Below are positions 3,801 to 40,600 of a stretch of DNA of 43,426 bases, one piece after another. The translations under genes were made by a program, and so were the position numbers. The DNA is from a virus: IMG/VR virus record IMGVR_UViG_3300045741_000487, positions 1-43,426 of that record; one strand, 5' to 3'. Below the pieces are notes generated by a model. It saw only the letters and a list, made by a program, of their open reading frames with translations. It searched no databases and was not told where the DNA came from. Position 1 is the first letter of the stretch, and each line of letters starts with the position of its first letter.

Positions 3801-4646
3801 CTGGTAGAGAGTCCCCTTCGCGTAGACGTAGTAGACGCGGTTGGCCTCGATCTCTGCCGGAAGAGCGCCGGTCGTCGCGAACGTGACCGCGGCGCCATGC
3901 GTGAAGAAGCCGGTGCCGAGCGAGTAGTTGCCCGTGGTGAACGAGCCGGGAGATCCCAACGTGAAGTTGACCGGCGACAGCGTTGGCGTGGCCAGCAGCA
4001 CCACCGGGGCTCCCGTCGTGAACGCGTGGTTCGCGCCGAACACGACGGTGTCGCCCACAGAGTCGACGCCGGAGACTTCGTAGTAGCTGACCCCTGGTGG
4101 CGTGCCGCCCTGCCAGCCAGCGCCGAGCGTGATCTGCGTGGCCGTGTTCGCGGTGATGTAGCCCCAGCTGTTGCCGCATCGCAGCGTCATGCCGACGAGA
4201 CCGTTGACCGGGAAGGCAGCGCCACCGTCCGTCATCTGCGGCGCGCCGGCGGCTGTCGCCGTCGAGTTGCCGCTGGCCGTGAGCGTGTTGGATGCCGTGA
4301 CGAAGTCCGCGGGCTTCTGGTAGAGCAGCGGCTGGCCGTCGGAGTAGAAGCGGAAGTAGCCGATGTCGCGGCCGTCGACCGTCGACCTACCAGCCAGGAT
4401 CGCGAACGACTGCTCTTCGTTGAAGACGAACGAGAACAGCCGCGGCGTTGAGATGGCTGGTGACTTGACGTTGCCGACGAACTCGAAGCCACCGCGCCTC
4501 GAGACGCCGCCCGTCACTCGCACGACCGCGTTCCGCAGCAGCGCCACACCGCTCTTGCGCTTGGGATCGTCGTAGCGGTCCCACATGCCGAGCGACACCT
4601 CGCCGCCCGACAGTGACAGCTGCAGGTCGCGCTGGTGGCGGGTCAT
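840..4646 (-). CDS. Tail nozzle (T7 gp12-like tubular protein B), greatly enlarged
   Basis: The N-terminus (residues 8-60) has the typical podovirus nozzle signature: LSGGEVS, a polar segment, then a VTGGVSRRGGFEFV motif. The protein would form the hexameric nozzle below the gatekeeper. At 1268 residues it is much longer than T7 gp12 (794). The extra length comes from beta-rich insertions: copies of one module at about residues 244-306, 434-501, 581-638 and 761-840, and a fibronectin-III-like stretch at about 655-740 (VDADGIESG followed by W-x-A-V-P-G-A-x-x-Y-R-V-Y). The conserved nozzle core resumes after about 850. The start ATG overlaps the stop of the gatekeeper gene by 4 nt, as expected for two interface partners made together. 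Which face of the tail carries the insertions cannot be told from sequence. Confidence 0.85.
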   Translation of the reverse strand: MTRHQRDLQLSLSGGEVSLGMWDRYDDPKRKSGVALLRNAVVRVTGGVSRRGGFEFVGNVKSPAISTPRLFSFVFNEEQSFAILAGRSTVDGRDIGYFRFYSDGQPLLYQKPADFVTASNTLTASGNSTATAAGAPQMTDGGAAFPVNGLVGMTLRCGNSWGYITANTATQITLGAGWQGGTPPGVSYYEVSGVDSVGDTVVFGANHAFTTGAPVVLLATPTLSPVNFTLGSPGSFTTGNYSLGTGFFTHGAAVTFATTGALPAEIEANRVYYVYAKGTLYQISLTRFGTPIALTGAPFNCSVALVPTVAGQNFSALSGPYDPIFPGTVHYAIATGDPKRIKLARSRSDALAGIAIDITHSGSGPMRVQYAYEPGDLAMGTPGPFAAVVMKRPWGDPSRLATFVSTEDYLGRPPTNTIYWCRVPGSGGAVTFDTTSNRVQLVAHGYGNGDPVIFSGTTAPVGIVFGANYYVRNKNTDDFQVSATPIGPIIDIGAGASGVIAFGNAYYEVPHYYSDAELFAFETAQSNDVVKIASRYRPLAELRRLGATKWELRDVTFGTSVAPPNDLNCPAPEPGAGMGINQVVNVGPPVQLQTETPHNFQDGEPLFVAGLAAKGIPDGFYAVHDSSAPTTVNLYLRTYTDGRSVTASGIGATPNATVRVSNSVDAHNFYCVTSVDADGIESGAGNVVDVYNNLLVDGARNPLQWSAVPGAVRYRVYRKLLGLFGLIGETQSPSFSDEGNLRADTSITAPVPDTSLLVSSQITFDLANDAVVWPGHGLSNGAPVIFDASVEMPTGIEVGKPYFVLNAAPGGNSGGNSFQLAATQDSTTAIALGGAPTGQWFAKAGSFPGTVSYFEQRLILGGSILRPADVWASASGTDTDLSYSVPTVASDRILFRVTSGANIGAVAIRHAVPLTHLILLGSTVELRVTPQNNDALTPESISVRPQSYIGSSSVAPSIVNGTIVFVSSRGQHVREMAFDQSVWGYLTGDLSLRAYHLFDGFSIRQQTYAKAPTPTLWFVSRPMANNTASGKLLAITYVPEEQIGAWHQHVTDGSFESVCAIPDGDEDRLYVVTKRDLGAGDAFYVERAAPHQRASYADAFHVDSGMSYSGPATKTITGLDRFNGLTVHYSADGVAGTARITGGTWTSTTAVTRAHFGLQFVTDIKTLPIALQASAAGTGTPKNPTQLWLRLDASGRFLSGPAPEDPSLEPAAGVLRPSRRPAVGQAFTGREQVNLPGDWNQEGQVWIRQDLPLPLDVLAVTIEVPSGG

Positions 4647-7600
4647 CGGTTGGAGATGTGGTTCGGAACGTGCTGGATCTGGGGGCTGCGCTGGTTGGCG
4701 GCCAACGAACTCGCGGCGCCGAGGTAGGCGGCCATGTGACGGAGCAGGCGCTGCGACACCTGTTCGCCGGCGTCGCCGCGGATGATCGGGGCGGCGATCA
4801 GCGAACCGAGCTGCAGCGACAACGCCGAGCGGAACACCGACGGGAACTTGCCGGCGTCTCGGATGCGCGTGACGTAGCGCAGCGTGGCATCTTCCTGGTT
4901 GGTGAAGAGCAATCGCCTGCCGGAGTCGGTCTGCTCGATCTGGAACGGTGCGTCGGCTCGCCCCATCGCCTCGACCACGGGACGTTCATCGAACGCCGAC
5001 GGCGAGACCGACTGCGCCTGCTGGTAGTCGTTGTTGGGGTTCGGCGGCAGCACCGCGAACGAACACAGCGCGTCCGGCGGGATCAGGTAGCAGAACTTGT
5101 AGTGGTCGTAGAGCGGCGACGCCGGCGGCGTGGTCGCCGTCAGCACTCGCCGCGTCAGCGCGAAGTCCCACTGCCGCAGCGAGAGCAACGCGTCTCGAGC
5201 TTCGCCGAACAGAGACTGGCACACCTCTGCCTCGATCGAACCGTCGTCGAAGCTGGTCAGCGTGTTGGTCACGCCGATGTGCTTGAGCGCCGAGTTGCAG
5301 ATCGCAAGTTCGGCCTCGAGGTCGCGCTCGTCCTTGGTCATCTCGACCCACTGCGCGTAGATGCGGCGCTCGAGGATCGTCATGCCCTTGCCGGTGTGGT
5401 GTAGCACGTCGACACCAGCCATGCCGGGAAGCGAGGCGATGCGCGGCAAGTCGTCCTGCGAGATCCCGGTGCGCATGAACACGTCCTCGGCTGCCATCAG
5501 ATCCTTGGCCGCGTTCACCACGTCCGAGTATTGCCAAGGCGGATTCTCGCAGTGCGGGTCGATCCACTTGACCTCCTCGGCCGGGCCAGCGGTGAGACCG
5601 CGATCGAACAGTGCTTCCCGGACGGCCCGCTTGAACCGCGTGCCGTTCTCGTAGTAGCGGTTCGCGAGATCCTCGAACGACGAGTCGCCCTCGCCCTGCA
5701 GCCACACGATGCCGACGCACTCGGCCCCGACGCTTCCCTCAGCCGACCACGCGAGCACGGCCGCGTCCATCGTGTCGAGCAGGCGCTGGAAGATGTTGTT
5801 CGGATCGCCAGTCGGCGACCACGACATCATCGCGGCGCCATCGAAGTTCTCGATGCCAAGCGTCGGCGCCACGATCGGTGCCTCGCTGTGGCCTAGGTTG
5901 GTGCCACCGATCGCCAGCTGCACGATGTCGACCTGCTCGCCAAGTGCTTCGGCAAGGGCGACGCCCAGGCCGGTCGAGAACGTCATCTTCGGATCGCCCA
6001 GGCGAGACGGCCCCGTGAACGGTTGGTAGATGCCGCCCGTGATGCAGTAGTGGTTGGGATGGTTGAAGCCAGGCGGGAACGGATTCACCTTCGCTTCCTG
6101 GCGAAGGATCGTGGCAAGCACGTTGCCGCTCGAGGCGAACACCGACGTGCCGTCGATGCGGACGCCTTGGTAGGTCGAGGCGATGTAGGCGGCGGCCGTG
6201 TTGGCCTCGACGCTGTAGTAGCGCTGCCCCAGCCGGACCTTCGGCGTGACCGCACCATCGCCGTAGAAGCGCAGCACCTCGTTGGGCCAGATGGTGGGGA
6301 CGGTCGCGAGAATCGGCAGGCCGATGGATTCGCTTAGGCTGCCAGCCGCCATCTGGAATGGGCCAGACCATGTCGCCTTGCCCTCGAACGGGCACCACGG
6401 CAGGAACAACGCCCACTTCTTCCACGGGATCGCGTTGCCGTTGGCGTCGGTGGGTGGCGTGATCTCGTAGGTGTCGCCAGCGCCTGGCGCGTTCGTGAAC
6501 GCGGTGCCGAGTCGGAGGAATCCCTTCCCGCCGCTGTAGTAGGAGTCTGCCAGCGGCACAGTCTGGCCGGCGTTGGCGCCGGTGAGCGCGGTGATGTAGC
6601 AGCCCGTGTGCGAGCCGACGAACACCTCCTGCAGGGTGACGATCGACGACTTCGCTTCTGCGTCCGTGATGATCACCTCGGTGCCACCTGGAGTCGCCGA
6701 CACGTAGAACGCGAAGTAGGCGTCCTGGCGCACGATCTTCGCGCTGATGGTTGCTTGCGCGCTGAACGCCACGGCGGCTCCGTCCGGCGCCAGCGACAGC
6801 TGCACGTATTGCTGGTCGAGCACGGTCACGTAGTAGTCCGTGGTCGTGTTCAGTTCGGCCGGCAGCGTGCCAGTCAGCCGCACCTTCTCGTTGTTCGTCA
6901 GCGTGTGGGATGTCACTCCGGGAAGCGCGGCCAGGATCTTGTCGTTGACATCGTCCCAGCCCTGCACGGCGATCTCTTCGAGTTCTGTGGCGAGGCGAGT
7001 GACGTAGTAGGTGGCCGATGGCGTGATCGCCAACGGCAGGTGGAACTGGACCGCGACAATGCCGGCAAGCGCTCCGGTGATGTTCACCGGTGTGCCGCCT
7101 CGCGTCGTGCTGACCTTGATGTCGAGGCCAACCGAGTAGACGACGAAGTAGCCGATGTTGAGCGTGATCCCTGGGATCGCGCCGCCTCCGCCATCCGTGA
7201 ACACGACGGTGTCGTTCACGACGAATGGGTTCGCTCCGAGCAGCGTGACGATCTCGGTTGCCGGCGTCGTCGAGGTAACCAGCGCGATGCCGGCGCTCTT
7301 CGTGAATGCAACAGGCTCGCCGACGTAGACGGGCCGCGTCTTGATCGTGAAACGCGAGAAGGTCGGCGCTCCTGCAGCGTCGAGCACGGTGCGGATTGAT
7401 GCGCTGTGCGCGATCGTGTCGAGCAGCGACCCAACGTCGCAGAGACCTCCGCACATGTTCAGGAGCTTGAGTTCGCTCGCGCTACTCGCGGCACCGCCGG
7501 TGATCGGGAAGCTGAACACCTCGCCGAACTCGGGCGGCGGATACAAGGTCGGCGACACCGTGATCTGGTTGGTCGCAGCGGCCCATCCGGCCTGCACGGT

Positions 7601-10003: not shown

Positions 10004-10020
10004 GTTGTGCTCCGGTATGT

Positions 10021-10047
10021 GTTGGTTGGTTGTTGGTTGGTTGGTTG
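10021..10047. repeat. GTTG/TTGG short tandem repeat
   Basis: The stretch is built of repeated GTTG units (CAAC/CCAA on the transcribed strand) interrupted once. It lies in the untranslated leader just upstream of the cement gene's ribosome site. Such an unstructured leader could help ribosome loading of a highly expressed capsid protein; that is inference. Confidence 0.6.
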
Positions 10048-10065
10048 CGGGGGAACCCAGCAGGC

Positions 10066-10085
10066 GCGCCGCCCGAAGGCGGCGC
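10066..10085 (-). other. UUCG-tetraloop hairpin after the major capsid gene
   Basis: On the minus-strand RNA an 8-bp GC stem is capped by a UUCG tetraloop, which is unusually stable. It begins 6 bases after the capsid stop codon. There is no U-tract, so intrinsic termination is unlikely; protection of the capsid mRNA 3' end or partial attenuation is more plausible. Confidence 0.55.
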
Positions 10086-10091
10086 CGCCGA

Positions 10092-16584: not shown

Positions 16585-18144
16585 TCAGATGTTCTCGTAG
16601 GGATCATACTCGCGCTGCCGGCGATTGCCGCGCAGTAGTGCTCGAGCCACTCGGTGCTTGGGCGTGTCCATGAGAGCGAGCACGTAGGCCGATCCGTAGT
16701 CCGGCGATCGCCCGAGGTCGTCGATGATCTCCTTGCGTCCTTGCACCTCGATGCGCTGGCCGCGGATGGCGAACTTCGGCCCGCACAGGTCGGCGAGCAG
16801 CTCGCGGTTGTCTGGCAGCTCGATCCCCGTGTTTGCCTGCGGGTCGAGGGCCTCGCGCATGCGCCACCACAGGCAGCTTCGCAGGTTGTCGAAGCCGATC
16901 TTGCCCTTGGCCGGCGCGTTCACGGTCTGGGCTGTTGGTTCGCCGACGGTGACTCCGACAACCTGCAGGTGCAGAGCCATCAGATGCCCGTATGGATGCG
17001 CCCCAACGCCGAACAGGTCGAGGTGGATGACGGCCTCGTCGCGAAGCGCTGCGACGATGAAGCCGGCGACGGTGGCGCCGTCGAGGCAGTCGCGGCCTTT
17101 GTGCACCACCGGCTCGTCGAACCACCACCCATGCCGGCGAGCGATCACCGTGTTGTCCCTGCCCTTCAGCGCGATGTCGGCGCCCAGGCTGTCCATCGGT
17201 GGCAGCTTGCTCGGGCGCTTCCATCGCTTCATGGCCGCGAGCACCCAGGCCGTCGGAATCACTTGGAAGGGGTCGTCCTCGATGCCGGCGTCGAAGTCGC
17301 CATACAGCATGCGCGAGCGCATCGGCTCGGGCATGGCCTGCAGCACCGACATGTAGTTGGTGCCCGCGTAGTAGGGGTTGTCGACGACGCGCGCCGGGAT
17401 GAACGTGCGGCTCATCGGCCGCACGATCTTCTCCGCGGGGACCGTCGCCGCGTCGAAGCTGTAGTCGAAGTCACCGTTCTCGAGCACGACGAACGGCCGC
17501 TCGTCCGGCACCTCGTAGTCTTCGTTGTCGCCGATGGTCGTGAACCAGCGGATCTCTCCTGGCGCGGCCGGGTGCGGGTGCTTGCGGTCGAGCCAAGGCC
17601 CGAACATCTTGATGATCCACCGACCCTCGGGCGACATCGGCGGGTTGAAGGTCATCAGGACGCGCTTGCGCTGCGCGGGGTCGTCGCTGCGCAGCCAGCC
17701 GACGACGAACCGCGCCTGTGACTCGCGCACCTCGGTGGCCTCGTCGATGCCGATCAGGTCGTGCGGACGCCCCTGCCAGCGAGACTCGTCGCCTGGGTTG
17801 TCGAGGCCGCCGAACTCGATCAGCCGGCCGTCGTAGACCCACTCGCTACTCTGCGAGCTGTAGCCGTCGGTGCTGCCGAGGATCTGGCCGATGCGCTGCA
17901 CCAGGCCCTTGGTCTGCGCTTTCTCGCGCCGGAACAGCACGGTGCGCTGGTGCTCGGTCAGCGCGAGGCCGCAGATCAGATCGCTCTTGCCCCCGCCGGC
18001 GGCGCCTCCGTAGCCGATGATGTCGGCCGTGCTCGCGCGGGCCATTGCCTGCGGGCCAGGAAGGACGCGCCACGGGCGCGAGTCGGCGCCGAGCAGGCGC
18101 TCGATCTCGGCGCGTCCCTCAGCGCTCAGCTGGCCGATGTCCAT
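16585..18144 (-). CDS. terL: Terminase large subunit (packaging ATPase-nuclease)
   Basis: 519 residues from ATG 18144-18142 (MDIGQLSAEG), which overlaps the small-terminase candidate by 26 nt; the longer upstream frame is Arg-rich and overlaps more. The ATPase domain has a Walker A-like GYGGAAGGGKSD near 44-55, Walker B DLIGIDEATEV near 128-138 and the coupling motif MTFNPP. The RNase H-like nuclease domain shows the acidic strand SLGADIALKGRDNTVIARR and a later VIHLDLFGVG (D pair), then D-Y-G-S-A-Y-V-L-A near the end. It cuts and pumps DNA into the prohead through the portal. Circular permutation of the assembly fits headful cutting, although the pac site is not visible. Confidence 0.93.
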   Translation of the reverse strand: MDIGQLSAEGRAEIERLLGADSRPWRVLPGPQAMARASTADIIGYGGAAGGGKSDLICGLALTEHQRTVLFRREKAQTKGLVQRIGQILGSTDGYSSQSSEWVYDGRLIEFGGLDNPGDESRWQGRPHDLIGIDEATEVRESQARFVVGWLRSDDPAQRKRVLMTFNPPMSPEGRWIIKMFGPWLDRKHPHPAAPGEIRWFTTIGDNEDYEVPDERPFVVLENGDFDYSFDAATVPAEKIVRPMSRTFIPARVVDNPYYAGTNYMSVLQAMPEPMRSRMLYGDFDAGIEDDPFQVIPTAWVLAAMKRWKRPSKLPPMDSLGADIALKGRDNTVIARRHGWWFDEPVVHKGRDCLDGATVAGFIVAALRDEAVIHLDLFGVGAHPYGHLMALHLQVVGVTVGEPTAQTVNAPAKGKIGFDNLRSCLWWRMREALDPQANTGIELPDNRELLADLCGPKFAIRGQRIEVQGRKEIIDDLGRSPDYGSAYVLALMDTPKHRVARALLRGNRRQREYDPYENI

Positions 18145-18535
18145 TCCCGTTGTGCCGTGGTGATGTCTGCGCCTTGGCCGCCTCGAGCGCCGCGGCGCGG
18201 GCGCTTTCCATGGCCATGATCGACGCCACGCCACGCTCGATCTGTTCGGTGGTCAGCCCGTCTGGGTTGCGCTCGTTGGCGCCCATCAGCTCGAGCACCT
18301 GCTTCGCCGGCATCACGAGATGCTCGAGCACCAGCCTCGCCGCCGTCTTGTCGCCGCCTTCCGCGTCCTCGAGCAGCTTCCTGGTCACGCGCCACAGCGC
18401 TGCTCGCAGGTCGATCCCCTCGGCGCGAGCGAACTCATCCGCGAGCGGGTAGAGGTCTGGCCGCCCCGGCTTGCGGCCTGGGCCGCCCTTGTTGCCGGCC
18501 GTGAACTTGCCTCCATGGTCGCGCTTGTCGCTCAC
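18119..18535 (-). CDS. Probable terminase small subunit
   Basis: 138 residues. The N-terminus has GGKFTAGNKGGPGRKPGRP, a basic Gly-rich element common in phage DNA-binding and small-terminase-type proteins (DUF5681-like). The middle (about 30-85) is helical (DEFARAEGIDLRAALWRV, A-R-L-V-L-E-H-L-V-M-P). The gene immediately precedes and overlaps the large terminase, the usual location for the pac-recognition subunit. The identity is by position and composition, since no HTH is obvious. Confidence 0.6.
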   Translation of the reverse strand: MSDKRDHGGKFTAGNKGGPGRKPGRPDLYPLADEFARAEGIDLRAALWRVTRKLLEDAEGGDKTAARLVLEHLVMPAKQVLELMGANERNPDGLTTEQIERGVASIMAMESARAAALEAAKAQTSPRHNGNGHRPAER

Positions 18536-18837
18536 AACACCTCAACCTCGGCGTCTTCCGCCCGCAACCGGTCGATCTCCTGCTGCAGGCGCTCGATGGT
18601 CTTCCGGCGAACGTCGCGGTTGAGAACAAAGTGCAGCAGGCGCAACTCCACCTTCAGAGCGGCACACGCCCGCAGCATGCGTTCCTTGCGCTCCTGCAGT
18701 TCCGCCGGAATGGCCGCCGGGTTTTCGAGAATGCTCACGAACACATCGATCCCGCGCACGATCTCGGCGGTGTGCACATACCCGCCGCTCGCCAGCGGCA
18801 CCATGCATCCGAGCGTGTCACCCATCGGTGTCATCAT
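18532..18837 (-). CDS. Hypothetical coiled-coil protein upstream of terminase
   Basis: 101 residues beginning ATG 18837-18835 with AGGTG about 5 bases upstream; its stop overlaps the next start (ATGA). Residues 45-98 form a charged coiled coil (RKERMLRACAALKVEL and RKTIERLQQEIDRLRAED). The function is unknown; it could belong to the DNA-recognition part of the packaging module. Confidence 0.6.
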   Translation of the reverse strand: MMTPMGDTLGCMVPLASGGYVHTAEIVRGIDVFVSILENPAAIPAELQERKERMLRACAALKVELRLLHFVLNRDVRRKTIERLQQEIDRLRAEDAEVEVL

Positions 18838-18840
18838 AGC

Positions 18841-19062
18841 TCACCTGTAGTCACCGTAGACCATGTGCCGTCGCATGACCCACCGCACGTTCGGGTCGTC
18901 AAGACGCGGTATGCGCAGTTGGAGCGGAGGAGTCCAGCCGAACCGCCCTGCCGCGCGGACCTCGGCCTCGGTCCTCGTCGCGGCATCGAAGCGCAGCCCG
19001 TGCTTGCGGAAGAACCTCGTGAGGCCGTCCAGCTTGGCGGGCGAAGAAGCCGCAACCATCAA
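18841..19062 (-). CDS. Small basic protein, first gene of the late cluster
   Basis: 73 residues (MMVAASSPAKLDGL...), basic, with FFRKHGLRFDAATRTEAEVR (helical) and a C-terminal RIPRLDDPNVRWVMRRHMVYGDYR. The stop is 3 bases before the next gene. This frame is preferred to the overlapping 18834-19055 frame, which is Arg/Ser-rich. As the first minus-strand gene after the divergent intergenic region it probably defines the start of the late transcript. The function is unknown. Confidence 0.55.
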   Translation of the reverse strand: MMVAASSPAKLDGLTRFFRKHGLRFDAATRTEAEVRAAGRFGWTPPLQLRIPRLDDPNVRWVMRRHMVYGDYR

Positions 19063-19233
19063 GATCGCAGGACGGCGTCCGACTCGGGTATCCTAGCGCG
19101 CGTCCTCGCGAAGGCGTTGCACGGTCTCACCGTGCCCCGGACCGAAGGGCCCGACCGCAAGAGGGTCGTTGCGCGAAGTCCCGCGGCAGCACCCCCTTGA
19201 GCCGGAACAAAGTGGCGCTGCAAACTCCTTCCG
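19063..19233. promoter_or_regulatory. Divergent intergenic region, candidate late promoter
   Basis: 171 bases between the first late gene (minus) and the PD-(D/E)XK-type gene (plus). A perfect 7-bp inverted repeat with a 3-base loop (GCACGGT/ACCGTGC, 19119-19135) lies about 60 bases upstream of the late start. On the minus strand a TAGGAT hexamer at 19090-19095, 28 bases before the ATG, could be a -10-like element; no convincing -35 is seen at 17 bases. This would be the natural target of the sigma-like protein encoded just upstream. The assignment is inference. Confidence 0.4.
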
Positions 19234-19950
19234 ATGTTCCGACTCGAACGCGAGATGACCCCGATCGCTGCCGCCTGGATGGCGGAACGCGGACTCACCG
19301 TTCGACGCGAGTTCGAGACCCCCTGGGGTATCTGCGACCTGCTCGGGGTCCAGTTTGACGAGGAAAAGGTCCGGCACCGACTTGCACGCGGGCAACGTGA
19401 AGCCATCGGTCCTCCGGAACGAGTTCGGTTGCTGCACCGGATCCCGGAAGAAAGAGCGATCACACTGGAGCGACTCGCCAAGCTCATGGGCCACGAGCTT
19501 GCTCGCGACCTCTTGAGCGCCGACCTGACCCTGCTGCTCGACCGCAAGTTCGTCGTGAGTCCGCGCGCTGGTCAGTATCGGCGCATCAACGGATGGGACC
19601 CGATCAGCAAGTCCATCGTCGCTGTTGAGCTAAAGCTCGCTCGGGTAGTGGATGCGCTTGCTCAGGCTCGGACCAACCGGCTAGTTGCCGACGAATCCTA
19701 CGTGGGGCTCCCAGCGGAAACTGCCGACCGGGTGCTGCAAGGACACCATCGCGCAATGTTCGAAGAGCACGGCGTGGGACTTCTTCGGATCACTCAGACT
19801 TCGTGCAGCATCGCGCTCGCGGCAACGCCCCAGCCTCACAGACAGGATCAAGCTCTTCGAACTCACTGCCTTGAGCGATTCTGGCGGCAGCTTGTCTCTA
19901 CAGGCACGACATCATCAACTGCTTCGCAACCTTTGCAGTCTCGCGGTTAG
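19234..19950 (+). CDS. PD-(D/E)XK nuclease-fold protein on the opposite strand
   Basis: 238 residues, one of only two plus-strand genes. Near the N-terminus WGICDLLGV holds Asp35, and SIVAVELKLARV holds Glu132 and Lys134; together they match the D...E-x-K core of PD-(D/E)XK nucleases such as VRR-NUC/restriction-like proteins. After it comes ADESYVGLPAETADRVLQGH and HGVGLLRIT, which in related sequences form the end of the fold. Residues 150-185 are well formed but the last ~45 residues look irregular and overlap a minus-strand frame (19898-20056), so a late frameshift is possible. CTCCTTCCG lies upstream and lacks a clear ribosome site. It might protect against other phages or cut host DNA; this is not shown. 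Confidence 0.7.
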   Translation: MFRLEREMTPIAAAWMAERGLTVRREFETPWGICDLLGVQFDEEKVRHRLARGQREAIGPPERVRLLHRIPEERAITLERLAKLMGHELARDLLSADLTLLLDRKFVVSPRAGQYRRINGWDPISKSIVAVELKLARVVDALAQARTNRLVADESYVGLPAETADRVLQGHHRAMFEEHGVGLLRITQTSCSIALAATPQPHRQDQALRTHCLERFWRQLVSTGTTSSTASQPLQSRG

Positions 19951-20056
19951 CCGGCTTTTCTTCATCGCCTAGCAGCGGCATCTTGCTTCCGGCGACAAAA
20001 GCCGCCGACAAATCCTGATACAGGGCCACGGCGCGACCATCAGGGCGGCGGCCCAC
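19898..20056 (-). CDS. Small ORF, possible frameshifted C-terminus of the 57-residue CxxC protein
   Basis: A 52-residue frame starting at GTG 20056-20054 that reads like a genuine protein end: ALYQDLSAAFVAGSKMPLLG followed by DEEKPANRETAKVAKQLMM. It has no good ribosome site of its own, but it overlaps the preceding 57-residue frame in the -1 phase. A single-base error or a programmed -1 shift would join them to about 80 residues. The end overlaps the convergent plus-strand gene by 53 nt. Confidence 0.4.
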   Translation of the reverse strand: MGRRPDGRAVALYQDLSAAFVAGSKMPLLGDEEKPANRETAKVAKQLMMSCL

Positions 20057-20142
20057 GCGGTTTGCTCATCGCAGCATGGCGGCGCCCCGCCGCAGAATTG
20101 GCACGCACCGAATGGGCGCGCATCGCGCGGGATCGGGATCAC
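19969..20142 (-). CDS. Small Cys-rich (CxxC) protein coupled to the sigma-like gene
   Basis: A 57-residue frame whose GTG (20142-20140) overlaps the stop of the sigma-like gene by 4 nt (GTGA), the junction used throughout this operon. The first 25 residues, VIPIPRDARPFGACQFCGG and then PPCC, contain a zinc-knuckle-like CxxC...CC. After about residue 30 the composition becomes unlikely (many Cys/Arg/Trp), while the -1 frame becomes good, so the true product may be frame-shifted. The function is unknown; it may bind zinc. Confidence 0.45.
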   Translation of the reverse strand: MIPIPRDARPFGACQFCGGAPPCCDEQTAWAAALMVAPWPCIRICRRLLSPEARCRC

Positions 20143-20774
20143 GCCGGCTCCTTACGCCGGCGCCGGCTGATGGGCTGGTGGCATGTGCGGCAGCGCGGCC
20201 GGCGGTAGTCCGCTGCCAGGCACTTGTCACACCTGGCTCGCCGCTTCGACCACTCGCCCAGGGACAGGGTGAACTGCTCACTGCAGACGCTGCACACCTT
20301 GGTCCGAACCACTGCTCGAGATCGGTTGCTGCAAGCAAACCCGCAGAACCGACGTGGTCGGGCCGTGCGCACGCCCCAGAAGTATTCTTTGCAGTAGTCG
20401 CACTGGAAGAACTGCTCCTTGCGGATCTGCCCCCACTTCTGGACCAGACGGATTCTGCCTGTGGGAACGACCTCTACCGATTCTGGTGGCGCGGCCACGT
20501 CGAGAACCAGTGGAACCTGCTTCTCGAACGGGATCTTGCCCTGGCCACGCCACGGGGCGCGCACCGCATCGCGCATGGCGCCAACGACGCGGTGTTGCGC
20601 GTAGGCTCGGAACTTGATGCCGCGACTTGGGTCGAACTGACCAAGGCACCGGTGCAGTGCGAGCAGCCCGACCTGCACCAGGTCGTCGGTGTCGACCGCG
20701 CGCGGACGCTTCACTCGACGCGCGAGCATCCGCACCCAGCCAACGTGATCGCCGAATTGCTCGGGGGAGTTCAC
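20139..20774 (-). CDS. Sigma-70 region 2 fused to tandem zinc-binding motifs (phage sigma-like factor)
   Basis: 211 residues from GTG 20774-20772 (GTGA overlap with the upstream stop; AGGA 9 bases upstream). Residues 25-75 read as sigma-70 region 2: DTDDLVQVGLLALHRCLGQF (helix binding the beta' coiled coil), DPSRGIKFRAYAQHRV (region 2.3-2.4) and VGAMRDAVR. Regions 3 and 4 are absent. Instead there are CxxC-x15-CxxxC (Cys125, 128, 144, 148; treble-clef-like FFQCDYCKEYF...RRFCGFAC), CxxC-x17-CxxC (161, 164, 182, 185) and a last CxxC (195, 198) before a basic tail RRRRKEP. It would bind core RNA polymerase through region 2, with the zinc part replacing -35 contacts or acting as an anti-host device. 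It lies directly before the late genes. Region 2 identity is strong; role is inferred. Confidence 0.8.
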   Translation of the reverse strand: MNSPEQFGDHVGWVRMLARRVKRPRAVDTDDLVQVGLLALHRCLGQFDPSRGIKFRAYAQHRVVGAMRDAVRAPWRGQGKIPFEKQVPLVLDVAAPPESVEVVPTGRIRLVQKWGQIRKEQFFQCDYCKEYFWGVRTARPRRFCGFACSNRSRAVVRTKVCSVCSEQFTLSLGEWSKRRARCDKCLAADYRRPRCRTCHQPISRRRRKEPA

Positions 20775-21202
20775 TTCGGATCGTCCTTCCCATCCAACGC
20801 ATCCCGCAGCTTCTCGAACGCCGCGCGACTCAGCTTGACACACGGAACCGGCGGGTCGCCCCAGGTGCCGGCTTCCCACTCGACGCACTTGAGCGCGTTC
20901 TCGGCTGCGTCGCGCAGGATGACGCTGCGCTCGCGGATTCCGTCGAGGATCTCGATTTCGGACTCGAACTCGCAGCGCCGGCATCTCTTGGGCTCGCCTT
21001 CCGCATCCAGGCAGTGCGATCCGTCGATGTCCGCGACGTTGCCCATCGTGTAGCGGCAGTCCCACTCGGTGCGCCACTTGCGCAGTCGGTGGTTGTCGGC
21101 GCGCAGCCGCTCGATCTCGTCGGCGGCTTCGTCGCAACTCGACAGTCCACAATCACGCGCCATCGCGTGCAGTTTGTTGATGAGCTTAGATTGGTTGTTC
21201 AC
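20771..21202 (-). CDS. Hypothetical Cys-containing coiled-coil protein
   Basis: 143 residues from GTG 21202-21200 (VNNQSKLINKLHAMARD), overlapping the upstream stop by 4 nt (GTGA). An N-terminal helix and coiled coil (about 5-45, with EAADEIERLRADNHRLRKW) is followed by a segment with C-R-R-C and other Cys residues (about 60-80) and a C-terminal helix. It may bind a metal ion. It is cotranscribed with the sigma-like gene. The function is unknown. Confidence 0.65.
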   Translation of the reverse strand: MNNQSKLINKLHAMARDCGLSSCDEAADEIERLRADNHRLRKWRTEWDCRYTMGNVADIDGSHCLDAEGEPKRCRRCEFESEIEILDGIRERSVILRDAAENALKCVEWEAGTWGDPPVPCVKLSRAAFEKLRDALDGKDDPK

Positions 21203-21384
21203 TTGCGCTGCTTCGTCTTCTTGGGTTTGGGAATGGCCAACAGCTTTCGCGGGATGCGCACCGCTGCATGTTTCCGCAGCGAGCAATGCCCGCACGTCAC
21301 CCAAGCCACCAAGTAGATCGACTTCTTATATGGGTAGAAGAACACGTCGTCGGTGACGTGGATCAGCTCGGAGGGACTGGTCAC
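21199..21384 (-). CDS. Small basic CxxC protein
   Basis: 61 residues with GTG start 21384-21382 (GTGA overlap with the upstream stop). It contains a T-C-G-H-C-S motif near residue 31 and a Lys-rich end (PKPKKTKQRK), suggesting a nucleic-acid or polymerase contact. No family recognised. It is part of the run of short coupled genes that ends in the sigma-like gene. Confidence 0.55.
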   Translation of the reverse strand: MTSPSELIHVTDDVFFYPYKKSIYLVAWVTCGHCSLRKHAAVRIPRKLLAIPKPKKTKQRK

Positions 21385-21665
21385 GCGAGCGCCTCCCGCA
21401 GCGACTCCAGCGCCGCGATGAACCGCTTCTCGACCGGGTCCTTGAAATACCCGCCCTTGATGTCGGCTAGGAACATGCTCCCCGAGAGCAGCATTTCGAG
21501 CGCCGCCTTGCGGAGTGCCTTCGTGGCGTCAAATAGCAGCGGTTCTCCGGCCGTCTGCGTGCGGGGAACGTACATCACGCCTGGGTTGGTCGAGGCCGTC
21601 ACCAGTCCCTTGCTGTTCAGGTCGATGTCGGTAGCTCCGGTCGCCGTTTTCATCGGGTCGATCAT
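21381..21665 (-). CDS. Hypothetical protein
   Basis: 94 residues from ATG 21665-21663 (MIDPMKTATGATDIDL), with GGAG 7 bases upstream and an ATGA overlap with the upstream stop. The longer in-frame extension is Arg-rich and rejected. It has a C-terminal helical part (DPVEKRFIAALESLREALA). No motif was recognised. Confidence 0.6.
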   Translation of the reverse strand: MIDPMKTATGATDIDLNSKGLVTASTNPGVMYVPRTQTAGEPLLFDATKALRKAALEMLLSGSMFLADIKGGYFKDPVEKRFIAALESLREALA

Positions 21666-28050: not shown

Positions 28051-28323
28051 ATGCTGAACATGCCCACCACTGAGACCTTCACCGACCTGACCAACGTCTG
28101 CGCGCCGGGAGTGTCCTGGGGCGAGGTCGCGAAGCTGACCGGCACCAGTCCGCGCACGATCTGGCGCCTGCGGCACGGTTTGCTGGTGCGCCCAACCCGC
28201 GGCACGCTGCAAAGCATCGCCGTAGGCTACGGTTGCCCGCTGGCTCGGGTCGAGGCCGCGGTGGCCGTCAGCCGCCAGCAGCAGGTCGCCGCTCGGAAGC
28301 GCCGGCGGACGGCGCGGGTCTGA
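28051..28323 (+). CDS. Cro/CI-type HTH regulator
   Basis: 90 residues, plus strand. Residues 22-45 contain VSWGEVAKLTGTSPRTIWRL, the helix-turn-helix of the Cro/CI (XRE-like) family, and continue RHGLLVRPTRGTLQSIAVGY with C-P-L-A-R-V-E-A-A-V-A, the usual third and fourth helices. The C-terminus is basic (ARKRRRTARV). There are two possible starts (28051 and 28060) and no clear ribosome site, so a leaderless or weakly translated message is possible. It is expected to repress the divergent early operon. The end overlaps the convergent Dcm-like gene by 56 bp. Confidence 0.75.
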   Translation: MLNMPTTETFTDLTNVCAPGVSWGEVAKLTGTSPRTIWRLRHGLLVRPTRGTLQSIAVGYGCPLARVEAAVAVSRQQQVAARKRRRTARV

Positions 28324-31625: not shown

Positions 31626-34600
31626 CTACCGCAACACCAGGCGGGCCGGGCCTGCCAGCGGCACACCGGTGACCATCGTGAACCACGCCGCGATGACGCG
31701 CCAGTCGGCGTTGGTGGTCTGGTCGCCCATCGCCGCCTTGCCGATCTCAAGGAGCCCGCGGTAGAAGTCTCTCGCCATCGTGGCGCCTGGCGCCTCGAGC
31801 ACGCGCGTGCCGTCGCTCTGTGCCAAAGCGAGCAACAGCGGCCCGGCGAACGGCACAAGCCCTACCGCGTTGCGTGCCAGGTTGCCGCCAAATCCCATCG
31901 CTAGGTCGTCGATCTTCGAGTCGTCGTGGTCGCGGTCATCGATGCCGCCGCGGAACAAGGTCTTCACCGCATACTCGAGCACCGCCGGCAGCAGCAGCGC
32001 CCAGCCGAACGCGGACGCGCGCGACTGCGAGCCCATGATCTGGTTGAGCACCAGGTTGCTGTAGTTGCCGAACTGCGTCCACAGCGACACGAACGGATGC
32101 GTGATCGAGAATGGCGCCATGCTCTCGGCGTTCGCGGCGCCCTGCGCCAGTCGCACAGCCTGGTCGGCGCGCTCAACGGACTCGGCCTCGGACAGGTTGG
32201 CGTCCTGTGACTCGTGATACGAGCCGAGCCACGTCGCCTTGTCGGCGAACATCTGGAACACGCGCTGAGGGAAGAACGCCCATCGCGCCATCGCTTGCCG
32301 CGCGCCCGAGATGGTCGCGGCTACCGGACCCTTCGATGCACGCGAGATTTCCTGCTGCAGCCGCATCACCTGGTCGTCCCACCGCTGTTGCATCGCCGGC
32401 GATCGGTCTGTGATGAACGTGGTGGTGATGTGCGGGCTCCACAGCACCTCTCGCGACGCCGCGCGCAGGTGCTTCCCCGCGACGTAGTTTCGCGCGTTGC
32501 TGACGCCGCCCGCCTGCAGCATTGAGTTCGCCAAGTTGAACCCTAGGTATGCCAGGCTCGCAGCGCTCCGCATCACGCGAACGGCGCTGTCCAACACGGG
32601 CCATTGCGTCGGCAGGCTGGTTCGCTGCAGCGCCGCGTTCTGCATCGTCGGGACGATCACGCGCGTTAGCAGTTCCCGATCGTATTCGTTCAGCAGATCC
32701 TCAAAGCGCACCGATCCTCCGCCCTCGGTCTCGAGCCGGCCGCGGAGGATCTTGTGCATGTCGTTGAGCACCGGTTCCAAATGGATGAACCGAAGCTCTT
32801 CGTCGACGTTGCTGACCATGGAGCCAACATCGAGCTGCAGCGGCGGCCGGTAGCTGTCGGATCGGTTCAGCGTGAATCCCTTCTTCGTGCCGACACTGTA
32901 TTGGAAGTCGTCGGCGGTCGACGTGAACTCGGCGTCGGCAGAGCTGTAGCGCTGCAAGAACTTCTTCGGCGCCAATCGGCGGTCGGCGCGCTTGGGCGTG
33001 TAGCCGCCCTCGAGCACGCCGAACGGCGTCTGCACGGCGCGCTTCTCGATGGTCTTGAACTCGTAGCCGAAGCGCAGCTTGTGCGTCGCCTGCGCGAGCG
33101 GCAGAAGCCCCTCGAACGTCCCCCACCAGTCGGTCAGGAACTTGTTGTCGGCCTCGGTCAGAATCTTCTCGGCGTAGAACCAGCGAACTGCAGCATCCCA
33201 GCGCGAAGTGTCGAGTTGCTTAGTGCCGTCCTTGCCCTCGACCATCTCGCCCCAGCCGCGGCCGACGAGGTTGGCTTCCAGGTTCGACAACGTGCCCGCG
33301 TTGAGCATGGCGCCGAGGATCTCGCGCACGCCGTTGAACGTGAACTTCTGCCCATTGCCGCGTAGGTCGGGAACGTCGATGCGCGTGTGCCATGCTGCAC
33401 CATGCCGCTGCTGCGCCTCGCGGATGGTCTCGGCGAGCCGCGCGACGAGCGGCGCCTTGGCCGCCCGGTAGCGCTCCAGAGCGCGATTCATGGGCAGCAC
33501 GAGGTATCGCTGGAACGCGCCACCAGCCTTGCCGCCGTCGATGTAGCGGGCCGCGTGCTCCCAGATCTTGAGGCTCGACAGCACGCCCCATCCCTCGAGC
33601 ACGACCGTCTTGAGCAGTCCCGGAGTGTGATCTGCTGGCGGCCTGGCGGTGTTCGAGCGAGCTGGTGCGGATGCCAGCTGGCTGGCGAGTTCGCCGAGCG
33701 CCTGGCGTGTCGCGATCTTCGAGGCCTCGCTGCTGAGCTGGCGCTCGTCGGCGGCAGCATCCCACAACTGCTCGCCGACCTGCCGCAGCTCTCGGAACTC
33801 CGCGACGGTGAGGTGGCGCCAGTCGAGCAGCTTCCCGGTGGCGATGGTTGGCGTGCTGGCGAGATGCGCTGGCTTGGCCCGGGCGAGCAGGGGCTTCAGC
33901 CGCTCCCACTCGACCGGATGCTCTGTCGCGACACGTTCGAGCGCCTTGTTCGCCAGCGCCACGCGCTGTTCGCTCTCGAAACCTGGGTGCAATTGGTAGG
34001 CCGCCGCGAGCGCCTGCGCCGCGTAGGCGAGGTCGATGTCGCGCGTCTTGGCGATCGCTGCGTCGGTGCCGTCGAAGGATCGGAGCAGGCGCACGCCAAC
34101 GCCGACCTCCTTGCGCACCTTCTCTGCCTGCGAAGCCATCTGCTCGAGCATCAGCTGGCGACGCTTCCACTGGATTGCCGCGACGCGGTCGCCTTTCTGC
34201 ACCGCCTTCTGCGCTGCGAGGCTGGCGCGCTTCACGCCCTCGAGCATGCCGCTGGCCGACAGGTCGCCGACGGCGCGCCCCTCGAGCGCTCGGCGGGCCG
34301 CTTCCTTGGCTACGGCCATCGTCACACGCACCGGCTCCATCGACTTGTCGAGCGCTCGCAGCTCGGCGGCGACGAACCGCTGGCGGGCCTCGTTGTGCAA
34401 CGCATCTTCGGCGGCCGCGCGCCGCTGGCGTGGGTCGGCAAGCTCGGGATGCTCTTGCAGCATGCGCGCATCGAGCGCCTCGTCGACGGCGGTGTCGATC
34501 GGCTTTGCGGTCAGCATCGCCTGCAGCAGATCGCGGCTGGTGGGGAAGCCGAACATGCCGGCAACCGTGTCTACCGGCAGTCCGTCTGCCGCCAGGAACT

Positions 34601-37600
34601 TGCGCAGCGCCGCCATCTGCTTCTCCGGCGGCAGCGTCGCCAGAGACTTCGTGGACTCGTCGGGCAGCAGTTCGGTGCCAAGCAGATCTTGCTCGACCAC
34701 ACCAGGGGCAAGGATCGACGCCACCTCGTCGCGGCTGAGCTTGTGGACGCCTTCCGCCTTGTGCACTTGCCCGTCGGCCTCGACCTCGCCGGTCTGCAAC
34801 CAGCGCATCGCGCGGTGCACCGGTTCCTTGCGGACCTCCTGCTCGACCTCCGGGCGCATCTTCTCGCGCACGGCCTTGGCTTCGCGCCGGCCGGCCACGT
34901 CGGCCTTCGCCAGTTCGCGGCCGAGCCACTTCATCACGCGCAGGCTCGACGCGTCCATCTTGGCGACGGCCGCTTCGTCCGCCTCCTGATGCAGGCGCTG
35001 GTGTTCCGCCCACGCGGCGTTGTCCATGCCGGATTCCTCCTGCGTCAGGAACGCTGGGACCGCGCCGCGTGTCGCCTGCGCTGCCTGCACGGCCTGCTCG
35101 CTGGCGACCATGCGATCCATCACCGCTCGGATCTCTGGCGTCAGCCGCTTGGCGGCAGTCGAGAGCATCAGTCGGCTGTAGACGCGGCGCAGGAACGCGG
35201 ACAGGCGAGCGAACAAGCGGGCGAGACCGGGTTCTGGAGCGCGCCCCTCGAACAGGTGCGCCTCCCAGGACTCGGCGAACATCTCGTGCGCCTTGCGCTT
35301 CTCGGCCAGCGTCTTCGTCTTCCACGATTCCGGCGTCTCGCCGGCCCACGAGAGGAACGTGTTGAAGTCGTCGACGAACTTCGGATGCGCCTTCTGCTCC
35401 CACAAGCGCTCGTAGATCGTGAGGAACGCGTGGGCGAGTTCGTGGCTGAACGTCGAGAAGTTGGCGTCCTTGTTGAGGATCACCCGCATCGTCCGCGGGT
35501 CGAACGCGCCGCGGATGATCTCGTCTTCGGTCTGGCCGAAGAACTGCTGCGCGTCCCTGATTAGGGCGTCGCGCTCGGCGGCTGCGGCTCGCTGCCGCTG
35601 CTCGGCTTCGTCGAGGGCGCCGGCGTAGGCTCGGGCGGCTTCGGCGGCGATGTCGGTGGACGACGGACCGACATGATCAGCGCTCCGTGGTTGAGCGGGT
35701 GATCCGGCGGCAACGGGTGATTCCTCGGAAGCCTTCGTGCTGGCATAGTGTTCTCCGCGACTGCGGAATGCGGAGTGCAAGTCTACCACGCCCACGGCGA
35801 AGCGCTCTTCGAGAAGCGGTTCGATGGCATCCGCCAGCTGCTGCGCGGTCATGCCGGCCATCTTCGGGTCGACGCCGATCAGCATCGTGTTGCCGTAGGT
35901 GGAGTGCCCGACGGCAGCGTGCTTTCCCTCGAGGCCCGTGATCGGCCACAGCACCTTCGTGTAGAGGTCGTCGATCTCCTGCGTCGTGAATCCTTCCGGC
36001 AGATCGATACGCACCGCGGCGCCGGCCTCGAGGCCGGGCCCTGCCTGCAGGGACATGACGAACATGCCTTCCTGGTGCAACGCGGCGCCGAGGCTGTCGG
36101 CCACGGCGACGGCCTTGCTGGCATCGTTCAGCAGGACCGAGATCGAGGCCTCTGGCGTCCCCAACCACGCGCCGCGCTGCGGCACCAGCATGCCCTCGAC
36201 GCCGTGTTGCCGGAGCACCATCGGGACGACGCGCGACAGCACGTCCTGAGTCGCTGCCGACCTATCTTCGGGCGTCAGCAGTTCCCATCGCTTCATCAGC
36301 TCGGGGTTGGTGTTCGGCTTCGCCTCGACCATCACCCTCGCCGCCGGCGACGCGAAGCGGTTGGTCTCCTGCTTCATCTGCGAGCGGCCGAGGCCCGCGT
36401 AACTGTCGCCCTCCGGCGTCTTCGGCGACTGCTTCTTCCACGGCAACTCGCCGAATCCACCGAAGGCCTTGGCGATTTCCTCGCGAGCCTGCTGCTGCGT
36501 GATGTCGCCGGCGGTGTAGCGACCCCAGATCTGGTTGGCCTTTGCCGGCAGATCGCCTTGCAGCGCCTTGTCGGCTTGTGCTTGCGCTTCTTCTTCGGTG
36601 ATCTCGCCGATGTCGAGCTTGTTGTAGATCTGCTCGAGACGCTTCTGCGTCTGCGCTCCGGTGCGTTTCTCTGCGGGCTCGAACATCCGACGCACCTGCT
36701 CCCAGGTGATCGATTGCACCTCACGCGGCAGCAGCCCGTATTGCCTCCCGACGCGAGCGTAGGCCTCGGCCATGATCGGGTAGAAGCCGAGCAGTCCTGT
36801 GGCGCGGCTGGTCGTGCCACCCTTGCCGCCCCAGACCTGCGTGACCAGATCGTCTGACGACGAAACCGGCAGCAGATAGCCGGCGGCGACGGCGTGCGTG
36901 TCGAGAGTGATGTGGCCGCGGCGCGAGTTCGGCGCGAACAAGTTGTCGTAGAACGACCGCACCTTGTGCTCGGCACCAAGCTGTTGGTAGACGTTCGCGA
37001 CGCTGCCGTCGTTGAGGATCGACACAGCCTTCGCGATGGTCGGGAAGCTGCTCCACTGCATGCGGGTCGGGTCTTTCCCGAACGTGCCACCTTCGGGCGT
37101 CCACTGCGAGAGGTCGGCTCGGTTGTGCGCCTGGTCGAAGACGCGGATCCAGTAGGCCGCTACGATCGGGTCGTTCAGCACCTCTCCCAAGGACTTGCCT
37201 TCGACAGCTGCGCGCAGCTGCTTTGTCCGACCCTCCCACTCCTTCGGTGCCTTGATGCGACCAAAGCGACGGTTGGCGCGCTCGGTCATCGCGGCGTCCC
37301 ACTTGTAGTCGCGCATCGCCGTCACTGCGTCGAGGATGCGCTCCGCCATCGACAAGTTGACGAACCAGTTTCGCTGCGGACTCAATACCGCGATCACCGC
37401 GGCGGCCTGCATCGTGCTGATCCCGTAGCGTTGCGACCAATGCTCGACGACGCGACGGCCGCCGTCATACCAGAGCCGCGAGCGGGCTCGATCCTCCGGC
37501 GACATCTGGTTGACGAGCCATTCCAAGTTGTCGGCAACGTGCTTCACGTAGGTCTCGATGACCTGCTCGTCGGTGGCGCCTTCTGGAACGCGCAGGAACG

Positions 37601-40600
37601 GCAGCTCCCGCAGGGCGCTCGCGTTCTTGGCCACCGCCGTCTTGTCCTTCATCATCACGGACAGGTCAGTGCTGAGCACGTTGGTGCGCGGATCCTCGGT
37701 GGCCTTCTCGCCACCGGGAAGACGCGTCGACACTTGCTGATTGAACGTCGGCGTCGCGCTGGCCGTGCGGCCAAGAACGGACCACGAGTCGCGCACCGTG
37801 CCGCTCGTGAACACCACGTCGTATGGCTGGACGCCAACGGAACTCAGGAACCCGCCGAGGTTGAGGATCGCGGATCGCGTCAGTCCGGTCGCGTCAGTGC
37901 CGCTGGCGACGATGAACGCGCCCGATGCATTCGCAACACTCAGCGCCCGATAGAGCGCGTCCATGCGTCCGGCGACGCGCAGTTCGTTGACCTGCTCCTG
38001 GGTCACCGGCACGAACGCAACGGGCCGCATCTGCGTGTCGAGCAGCATGATCCCGGAGTCCTCGCCGGCGACCTTCTTCGCCATCGCCAGGGCGCCGTCG
38101 GGTCCGGTGATCTTGACTTGCTCGAGCTGGCCGTGCTCGAGGAGCACGCGCTCGACCACTGGCACCGTCTTGGTCGGCGCGTCCTGTTTCAGGTCGGTCC
38201 ACCCGCTGCTCAGGGTGTCCTGCGCGTCCGCCATCTCCCACCTGACCCCATCGCCGAGGCCGCCGCCAAGGGCCATGAATCCCCGCCACGTGATGCCTGA
38301 TCCGCGGAACGCCTCGGCTGCCCGAGTGTTCATTGAGCGATCCGCTCCGCTTAGCGTCTCCTTGCCGCTCGGGTGGTTGTGCGCCAGCCAGATGTTCGCA
38401 GCACCCTTCACGCGGAAGGCTTCTCCAATCAGCGTGGGCAGGTATAGCGGGGCCTCTGAGACAGCCCCCTTGAAGCCGCCGACGATCGCCAGCGGTTTGC
38501 CGTTGCGGTCTGTCACCAGCCCGTCGACGCGCTCGACGGCGCCGCGCCGCAAGTGTGCTAGGGCTGCGGCGGCTTCGGCTGCGTTGGTGACGTTACCAGC
38601 TCCGATCTCTCGCCGTTGCGTTTCGACGAGGGTGGTGCGGGTGGCGTAGACGCCGGCCACGTCGTCGCGGACTCCCCATCGACTACGCGATCGCGGGGCG
38701 GCACGCCCACGCTTTCCTCGGGCGGTTTCCACTGGAGCAGTCGAAGCAGTGGCAGTGTCCCGCTGTGCTGGTTGAACATTGGCACCGGTAGTGTCCTGCT
38801 CCCGCGTCGCCGTGTCCACTGCCGGCGCCGGAGTTGTCCACTTCTGCCTGAAGTGCTCGACCACCTCACGCAGCCATGGCAACTTGTGACGGTCGGCGGT
38901 GTCCAGTAGCGCGTCCGCTCCTTCAAGGTTCCCCTGGATAAGCGCCTGCACATGCGGGTTCAGCCACCCCGCCATCACGGGTTCGGTCGACGACAGCTTG
39001 GCCATGCCGTCCTTGGCTGCCTGCAGCGCGCGCTGGTCGGCCTGCGGCGTGTCTTCGTGCGCTGTCTGGTGGAACGTCTGGTCCTGGCCGGCGGCGTCGC
39101 GCAGTGCGCGCATGACCTGTTCTTCGGCGGCGACGCGGTTCTCGACCGGCGCTGCGTCGAAGGCCTCGATGGCCTTGGTCACGCTCTCTGGAGCCCCCTC
39201 GACGCCACGCACGGCGTCGACCACGTTGGCCACGTTATGAATCGCTTGGTCGTTCTCGTCGTAGCGGTCGATGACTTGGCCGATCTGCGTCGAGGCTCTC
39301 GACTGCGTAAGCACGGCGTCGCCAGAAGCGGTCGTTCCGTGCAGCGCGGTCAGCGGAAACGCGGCCTGGAACTGCTCGGGAGTCATGCCGAGCTGCACCC
39401 GGTTGGCCTCGATGAACGCAGGCCACAGGCTCGCCTGCGCGCGAGCATCTTCAGCGCGCCGGTATGGCATCAGTCCCGTCGCCTGCAGCTGCGCTGTCAG
39501 GTGGTCCTCGATGGCGCGCAGCTGCCGGCGGTTCACGGTGAGATCTTCCGCTTGCTGCTCGATCGCAGGCTCACCCATCTTGTTCAGGATCTCTTCGGTG
39601 CGGTCGGCGTCATGCTCGCTCAGCGCGTCTTTGTCTCCCCACCTGGCCAATGGCATGAACGCGCCATCGGCGAAGCCGGACAGCTTCGTCTGGAACGTCC
39701 CCGATGGCATCACGATGTCGCCAGCCTGCGCAGCCTGGCGCCGCACCTCGTCGCTCATGCCTGGGATCACACGGTCGAGAGACTCGAACAACGATCCGCG
39801 TTGCTCGCCTTCGGCATGGCCTTCGGTTGGCTTGCCGCCCTGCTTCAGCATCTCCTCGACTTGCGACGCGTCCAGGTAGACGTTGACCAGATCGGTAGCT
39901 GCATCGGCGTTGTTGGCGAACTCCTCGAGCGCTGCCGGGTTCTCGAGGCCGATCTTCGACATGGCGACAGCCTGCGCCTTGCGCCGCGCGAACTCGCCGG
40001 CTCGCCTTGCCCAGGCGACACGCCCCATCTCGTAGTTCGCGTGCATCGCCGAACCGGGGATGCCGATCAGCGACACGCCCTGCGCGGTCTTGATCGCGAT
40101 CTGCGCGAGTCGATCTCCGATGCCATCCCACTCTCCGGTCGCGGCGCCTTCGGAGATGATCTGAGACACCTCCTGCAACACCTCGGTTCCGACCTCGCCG
40201 GCGACGCCCTTCACGTAGCCCCAGGCGGCGCGCGCCGCGGCTTTGCCAATGGTCGGCGACGCAGCCTCGTCCAGCACGCGGGCGAACAACTCCTTGCCGA
40301 TCGTCTTGCGGATCGGCTCGGCGAGGAACTCGGCGCCGACGTATTCGAGAGCGGTGTTCACGATGCCGACAGCCAAGCCAAAGGACGCTGCGTCGAGCTT
40401 CGGCACGCCCTTCTCGAGCAGGTCGGCGTATTGGTTGCCGGTCTCCATCATCAAACCCTGCGTCAACCCGACACTCAGCGAGCCGAAGGCGAACGCTCCG
40501 GGGACGGTGAGCCCCATGCCTGGGCCAGTCTCCCAGGTCGCGGCAGTGGCGACGCCGGCCGCGGCAAGGCCAGCAGCCAGTGCGTCCTGCATCTGTGCGC

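Follow-up and report, generated by a model that had tools for sequence, protein, structure and literature searches.

We identified a 211-residue phage protein in which a sigma-70 region 2 of the FliA/WhiG type is followed by a basic tail with ten paired cysteines, and in which regions 3 and 4 are absent. The protein is encoded in the window, i.e., the whole stretch of DNA that was analyzed. This 43,426-base sequence is a single IMG/VR virus record with a linear classification, and the architecture of the protein is known from this one metagenomic contig alone. We propose that it may be an orphan minimal phage sigma factor resembling T4 gp55, with the zinc-type tail serving as an accessory upstream contact, a reading whose prospects we judge to be evenly balanced. 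The evidence for the two parts of the protein, for the gene and its surroundings, and for and against this proposal is given below, and the features are collected in Table 1.

Table 1. Positions of the sigma-like gene, its parts and neighboring features in the window.
Feature	Position	Strand	Details and basis
Sigma region 2/zinc-motif gene	complement(20139..20774)	minus	211 aa; GTG start at 20774; stop 20139-20141
Sigma-70 region 2 (2.1-2.4), FliA/WhiG type; residues 1-76	20547..20774	minus	Pfam, TIGR02479, predicted fold
Low-confidence linker; residues 77-124	20403..20546	minus	AF2 model; alignment with and reading of FliA proteins
Zinc-type module 1, CX2C-X15-FCGX2C; residues 125-148	20331..20402	minus	Sequence; weak PHC1 match
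Zinc-type module 2, CX2C-X17-CX2C; residues 161-185	20220..20294	minus	Sequence; AF2
Last CxxC (195/198) and basic tail RRRRK; residues 195-211	20142..20192	minus	Sequence
Preceding gene, 143 aa, eight Cys	20771..21202	minus	Weak coiled-coil match; gene call
Opposite-strand gene, 717 bp, 238 aa	19234-19950	plus	Between early and late blocks
Intergenic region	19060..19233	both sides	Upstream of late cluster (minus) and opposite-strand gene (plus); candidate divergent promoter region
Late cluster start	16585..18535	minus	Candidate small terminase and large terminase
Candidate small terminase	18119-18535	minus	Inferred from position and sequence
Large terminase	16585-18144	minus	phrog_979, Terminase_6N

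A FliA/WhiG-type region 2 without regions 3 and 4

The Pfam Sigma70_r2 model matched residues 9-76 of the protein (E=1.4e-14, 54.1 bits against a curated cut-off of 24), and the NCBIfam model FliA_WhiG (TIGR02479) matched residues 10-73 (E=2.8e-13). A reading made earlier from the letters of the DNA and their translations, hereafter the sequence-only reading, had placed region 2 at residues 25-75; the domain was indeed present, but the Pfam match showed it to be larger than claimed. The PHROG sigma families agreed with a FliA/WhiG type of region 2, FliA structures ranked first when the 211-residue protein was used in a PDB sequence search, and the closest cellular sequences to region 2 were FliA-type proteins, with ~50% identity over 60 residues. 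The whole-protein FliA_WhiG score was 50.1 bits, below the cut-off of 189.6 that a complete FliA/WhiG protein exceeds. The protein is therefore a member of the sigma-70 family by its region 2 and is not a complete FliA-type factor.

Across 21 cellular and viral region 2 sequences, D31, Q34, G36, F55, Y58 and A59 vary little or not at all, and the protein keeps all six; the region 2.3/2.4 residues F55, Y58, A59, R62 and G65 were also retained. AlphaFold2 (AF2), supplied with an alignment of 21 region 2 rows, predicted the three-helix fold of region 2 with pLDDT near 95 for residues 11-70. The sequence-only reading had named the lack of a structural match to region 2 as a result that would count against it, and a match was present: P. 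aeruginosa sigma-28 (9wsm_F) ranked at the top when solved structures were compared with the model, with Z 10.9 and 1.7 A across 74 residues, although, because the alignment contained region 2 rows of other sigma factors, the fold is support for the assignment rather than independent proof. When AF2 was given the single sequence, the N-terminal half was modeled poorly, with generic helical matches.

The expected absence of regions 3 and 4 was borne out. Alignment of the protein with FliA proteins showed that it is without the FliA region 3.0 motif (W-PRSVR), a purpose-built FliA region 4 profile, which at E<1e-3 recovers 51 of the 80 proteins nearest in region 2, found nothing in it at E<=10 with filters off, and the Pfam region 4 models had no match anywhere in the window. 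Region 2 is followed by a linker, in which residues 81-120 had pLDDT block means of 32-41 in the AF2 model.

A basic tail with five cysteine pairs

The cysteines of the protein are located at residues 43, 125, 128, 144, 148, 161, 164, 182, 185, 195 and 198. Ten of these lie in the tail (residues 125-198) and form five CxxC or CxxxC pairs, arranged as CxxC-x15-CxxxC, CxxC-x17-CxxC and a final CxxC. When this tail was shuffled 100,000 times, five pairs came up once. The last 20 residues of the protein include 8 K/R, and the whole protein has a pI of 10.6 and a charge of +24.8. The patterned cysteines and basic end that the sequence-only reading described are thus as it described them. The motifs are predicted to bind zinc, and a charge of about +25 suits nucleic-acid contact. 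Since ten cysteines make two four-cysteine sites with one pair left over, the pairing of the residues is uncertain.

The best PDB sequence match for module 1 was the FCS finger of PHC1 (2l8e_A), a weak one (phmmer, E=0.061). The published consensus for these zf-FCS/MYM-type treble-clef fingers is CX2CX14-30FCSX2C (PMC4047054), which module 1 (CX2CX15FCGX2C) fits except that Gly replaces Ser. However, Pfam zf-FCS (PF06467) gave no match to the tail at E<=10, and for this reason we do not claim membership of that family. Fingers of the FCS type are reported to have proteins as targets, or else RNA and DNA, to which they bind with no sequence specificity (PMC4047054), and therefore the motif alone does not specify the target of the tail. 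Module 2 was predicted with moderate confidence to form a beta-hairpin followed by helices (AF2 pLDDT block means of 72-87 for residues 161-190). The tail gave no confident match to any known zinc family; fold searches barely covered it, and their lack of a match in this part carries no weight.

The gene and its genomic context

The sequence-only reading gave the coordinates of the gene correctly, with no strand; it lies on the minus strand, and the plus strand has no such open reading frame at 20139-20774. The gene assignment is based on the open reading frame and its translation, a coding-potential gene call and third-position GC. It was called by a simple codon model trained on clearer genes of the same phage, its frame is open along the whole length, and its third-position GC is 0.72-0.87 across all four quarters and hence high in both halves. 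The open frame and the high third-position GC in both halves indicate that the gene looks coding in one frame and is not an obvious artefact.

The contig belongs to a podovirus resembling Rauchvirus (BPP-1). Its portal and large terminase share 53-59% identity with their counterparts in Bordetella phage BPP-1 (Rauchvirus), in Limnohabitans phage DC33 and in marine records. The 39-kb record of phage DC33 (PQ492659.1) has a tailed-phage-type portal and terminase and a taxonomy line that says Inoviridae, a label that is probably a wrong assignment. No integrase was recognised in the window by the searches run.

The early block extends from ~31491 to 20139 and encodes RusA, RecE-like, RecT-like and DnaD-like (weak) proteins. 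The sigma-like gene is the last of this same-strand RecE/RecT/RusA early operon. The stop of the preceding 143-residue gene overlaps its GTG start by 4 nt (GTGA), suggesting that the two genes are probably translated together. The product of that gene, which matched no known domain or family, is a possible partner of the sigma-like protein. Inside the early block, on the opposite strand, is a gene for a repressor-like helix-turn-helix protein of 90 residues (28051-28323, plus strand).

The sequence-only reading was right in placing the sigma-like gene at the end of an operon but not in placing it directly before the late cluster, because ~1.1 kb including an opposite-strand gene separates it from the late/terminase cluster. 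The 238-residue product of the intervening gene gave no family match above noise. A D...VELK-like stretch in it hints at a PD-(D/E)XK nuclease, and the third-position GC of its gene is lower (0.66), pointing to a possible late acquisition. The late genes are encoded on the minus strand, starting near 19060 and running downwards; should the ends of the contig join, they continue from 43336 to 31626. Also on the minus strand, a gene at 31626-41273 encodes a giant protein of 3215 residues with LPD22, RadC-like JAB and DUF7178 matches, a large polyvalent protein that is possibly injected, and a leader at 10004-10091 with tandem CCAA repeats (CAACCAACCAACCAACAACCAACCAAC) separates the major head gene from the gene that follows. 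Apart from the sigma-like protein, no RNA-polymerase-directed protein was recognised in the window.

No consensus promoter was found in the intergenic region upstream of the late cluster, no sigma-70 consensus promoter was found in 18500-21500, including the stretch before the late genes, and no repeated promoter motif was found upstream of the late genes. A search at the end of the sigma-like gene found no terminator. With neither a terminator there nor a sigma-70 promoter before the late genes, early-operon transcription may read through into the late genes. The motif TAGGAT, which falls in three gaps among its four minus-strand sites, was dropped as a promoter candidate because it was picked post hoc and one of its occurrences overlaps a stop codon.

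Search for relatives

The combination of region 2 with a zinc-motif tail and without region 4 was found nowhere else in the collections searched, i.e., IMG/VR, GTDB, INPHARED and PLSDB, which may omit records very near to this one. Peptide scans of IMG/VR and GTDB with the 211-residue protein returned no relative of the same architecture, and neither did tblastn against PLSDB. The 66 INPHARED records found by tblastn matched region 2 or the tail, never both; 10 of the 11 that were opened have further C-terminal sequence with no cysteine pairs after region 2. A region-2-based scan of GTDB gave 51 loci, all of which lack CxxC downstream of region 2, and no second copy of the architecture came from region-2-based scans of IMG/VR or from a tail-based scan. 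A DNA pattern combining region 2, CxxC and CxxxC occurred once in the window and not at all in IMG/VR. Furthermore, no relative of this architecture was found in 399 genomes of one order (tail query) or 398 genomes of one phylum (whole protein). Those low-E tail matches in the 399-genome sample that were opened proved to be unrelated proteins or spurious frames, none with region 2, and were rejected. Every one of these scans depends on visible similarity or on short words, exact or semi-degenerate, and could miss a diverged relative; the synthetic variant fragments that were used served only to set degenerate scan patterns and are not evidence.

Among the 80 region-2-nearest proteins, one other, from IMGVR_UViG_3300023179_000001, has CxxC pairs after region 2. 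Region 2 was found in none of 78 portal- or terminase-related records, many of which are fragments.

Proposed function and alternatives

What region 2 is known to do makes it plausible that the protein redirects host RNA polymerase. According to our preferred model, the FliA/WhiG-type region 2 would dock on the host core enzyme at its beta' clamp helices and read or melt a -10-like element, while the basic zinc-motif tail would replace regions 3 and 4 as the upstream contact, touching the beta flap, a phage partner, nascent RNA or DNA. As the product of the last gene of the early operon, the protein would then turn host polymerase onto the late genes. We infer the core binding, promoter recognition, tail contacts and late-gene targeting in this scheme from several observations. 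Region 2 is strong by three profile libraries and by predicted fold, with its signature residues kept; the tail has ten paired cysteines and a predicted fold for module 2; the charge of the whole protein suits nucleic-acid contact; the protein is the sole polymerase-directed candidate and closes a recombination operon upstream of the terminase; and region-2-only sigma proteins work elsewhere, e.g., T4 gp55 (PMC7892883, PMC2988020) and RsoA (PMC8103513).

Other observations argue against a minimal sigma factor. The protein is an orphan and thus offers no evidence of selection on either half, and the absence of region 2 from the 78 related records suggests that relatives manage late transcription without one. 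Both gp55 and RsoA work with separate partners, and there is no region 4 partner in the window. Late genes with no repeated promoter motif, and an opposite-strand gene between them and the sigma-like gene, also fit the model poorly. The sequence-only reading is supported in part: both sequence and predicted fold back the fusion of region 2 to zinc motifs without regions 3 and 4. Its idea that the zinc motifs take the place of region 4 and read the -35 element or bind an activator lacks direct support, as no homologue, promoter motif or confident zinc-family match of the tail was found. That the protein represents a new class of promoter-specificity factor, with region 2 as a -10 reader and a zinc-finger upstream anchor in place of regions 3 and 4, is doubtful in our estimation. 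If the protein does work alone, the -35/flap half of sigma would be replaceable by a different fold, and the protein would offer a minimal system for asking which sigma parts are needed as well as a compact means of redirecting the RNA polymerase of bacteria. In a BPP-1-like phage with relatives that have no recognised sigma region 2, it would furthermore be a candidate switch for the late genes.

Sigma binds the clamp through its region 2 (PMC7892883), and the same features could belong to a host shut-off decoy, in which region 2 fills the beta' clamp and displaces host sigma while the tail grips nucleic acid, with no promoter recognition at all; the missing regions 3 and 4 and the lack of an identifiable cognate promoter agree with this. 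However, the -10 reading and melting residues F55, Y58, A59, R62 and G65 are kept, which a pure decoy does not need, and a position at the operon end and ahead of the late genes suits an activator more than a factor for immediate-early shut-off, making a decoy rather unlikely.

A division of labor has precedents in RsoA, which needs SigO, and in gp55, which works with gp33 (PMC8103513, PMC2988020). The protein might similarly be half of a two-part sigma, in which a separate host or phage partner makes the -35/flap contact and is bound by the zinc tail. Contacts between proteins can be made by fingers of the FCS type (PMC4047054), and the coupled, cysteine-rich 143-residue neighbor could be the partner. 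On the other hand, that neighbor has no known domain and the window contains no region 4 domain, and we consider such a two-part factor unlikely.

It is also conceivable that a horizontally captured FliA fragment and a zinc-motif sequence were joined recently by chance in a functionless, decaying gene, as orphan status in every collection searched and absence from related phages might suggest. Nevertheless, this seems quite improbable given the open frame, the phage-like third-position GC in both halves, the coupled start, the intact signature residues of region 2 and the regular series of five cysteine pairs. Finally, it is very hard to credit that the protein is not a transcription factor and that region 2 is a single-stranded DNA-binding element acting with HNH-type zinc fingers in replication, recombination or DNA entry: the operon neighbors RecE, RecT and RusA are recombination genes, and the best phage match of the tail by tblastn is a zinc-finger protein of ChaoS9 (E=0.1), annotated as an HNH endonuclease in one record of that phage, but the 211-residue protein matched no HNH or nuclease family, and sigma region 2 is not known to serve in proteins other than RNA polymerase factors.

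Comparison with known systems

The protein resembles the group 3 FliA/WhiG (sigma-28) factors in the sequence and fold of region 2. Those factors have the region 3.0 motif and region 4, whereas the protein described here has a cysteine-rich tail instead. The phage sigma of IMGVR_UViG_3300023179_000001, encoded at positions 3980-4669 of a 104-kb contig between the large terminase, which it adjoins, and a structural gene, similarly combines a FliA-like region 2 (40% over residues 11-72) with C-terminal CxxC...CxxC. However, its match to the 211-residue protein is limited to region 2, it keeps region 4 (E=2.1e-5), and it has two CxxC pairs compared with the five CxxC/CxxxC pairs here; no second copy of it was found in the scan made, and it is thus a singleton.

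RsoA, the separate region 2 subunit of the two-subunit SigO-RsoA sigma of B. subtilis (PMC8103513), likewise carries region 2 without region 4 on one polypeptide. It differs in that our protein has a zinc-motif tail and no region 4 partner in the window. Established work shows that sigma uses region 2 both to touch the beta' clamp helices and to read the -10 element, and T4 gp55 does so with region 2 as its only sigma domain (PMC7892883, PMC2988020). Both gp55 and the 211-residue protein are phage proteins with region 2 as their sole sigma homology and with a late-gene role, which for the latter is proposed. The region 2 of gp55 is highly diverged, whereas that of the 211-residue protein is close to cellular FliA. 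Neither a gp55-type helix-loop-helix nor a C-terminal sliding-clamp-binding motif was seen by eye in the 211-residue protein, and the reported parts of gp55 include no zinc tail. We do not claim that the protein is a gp55, but it plausibly works like one.
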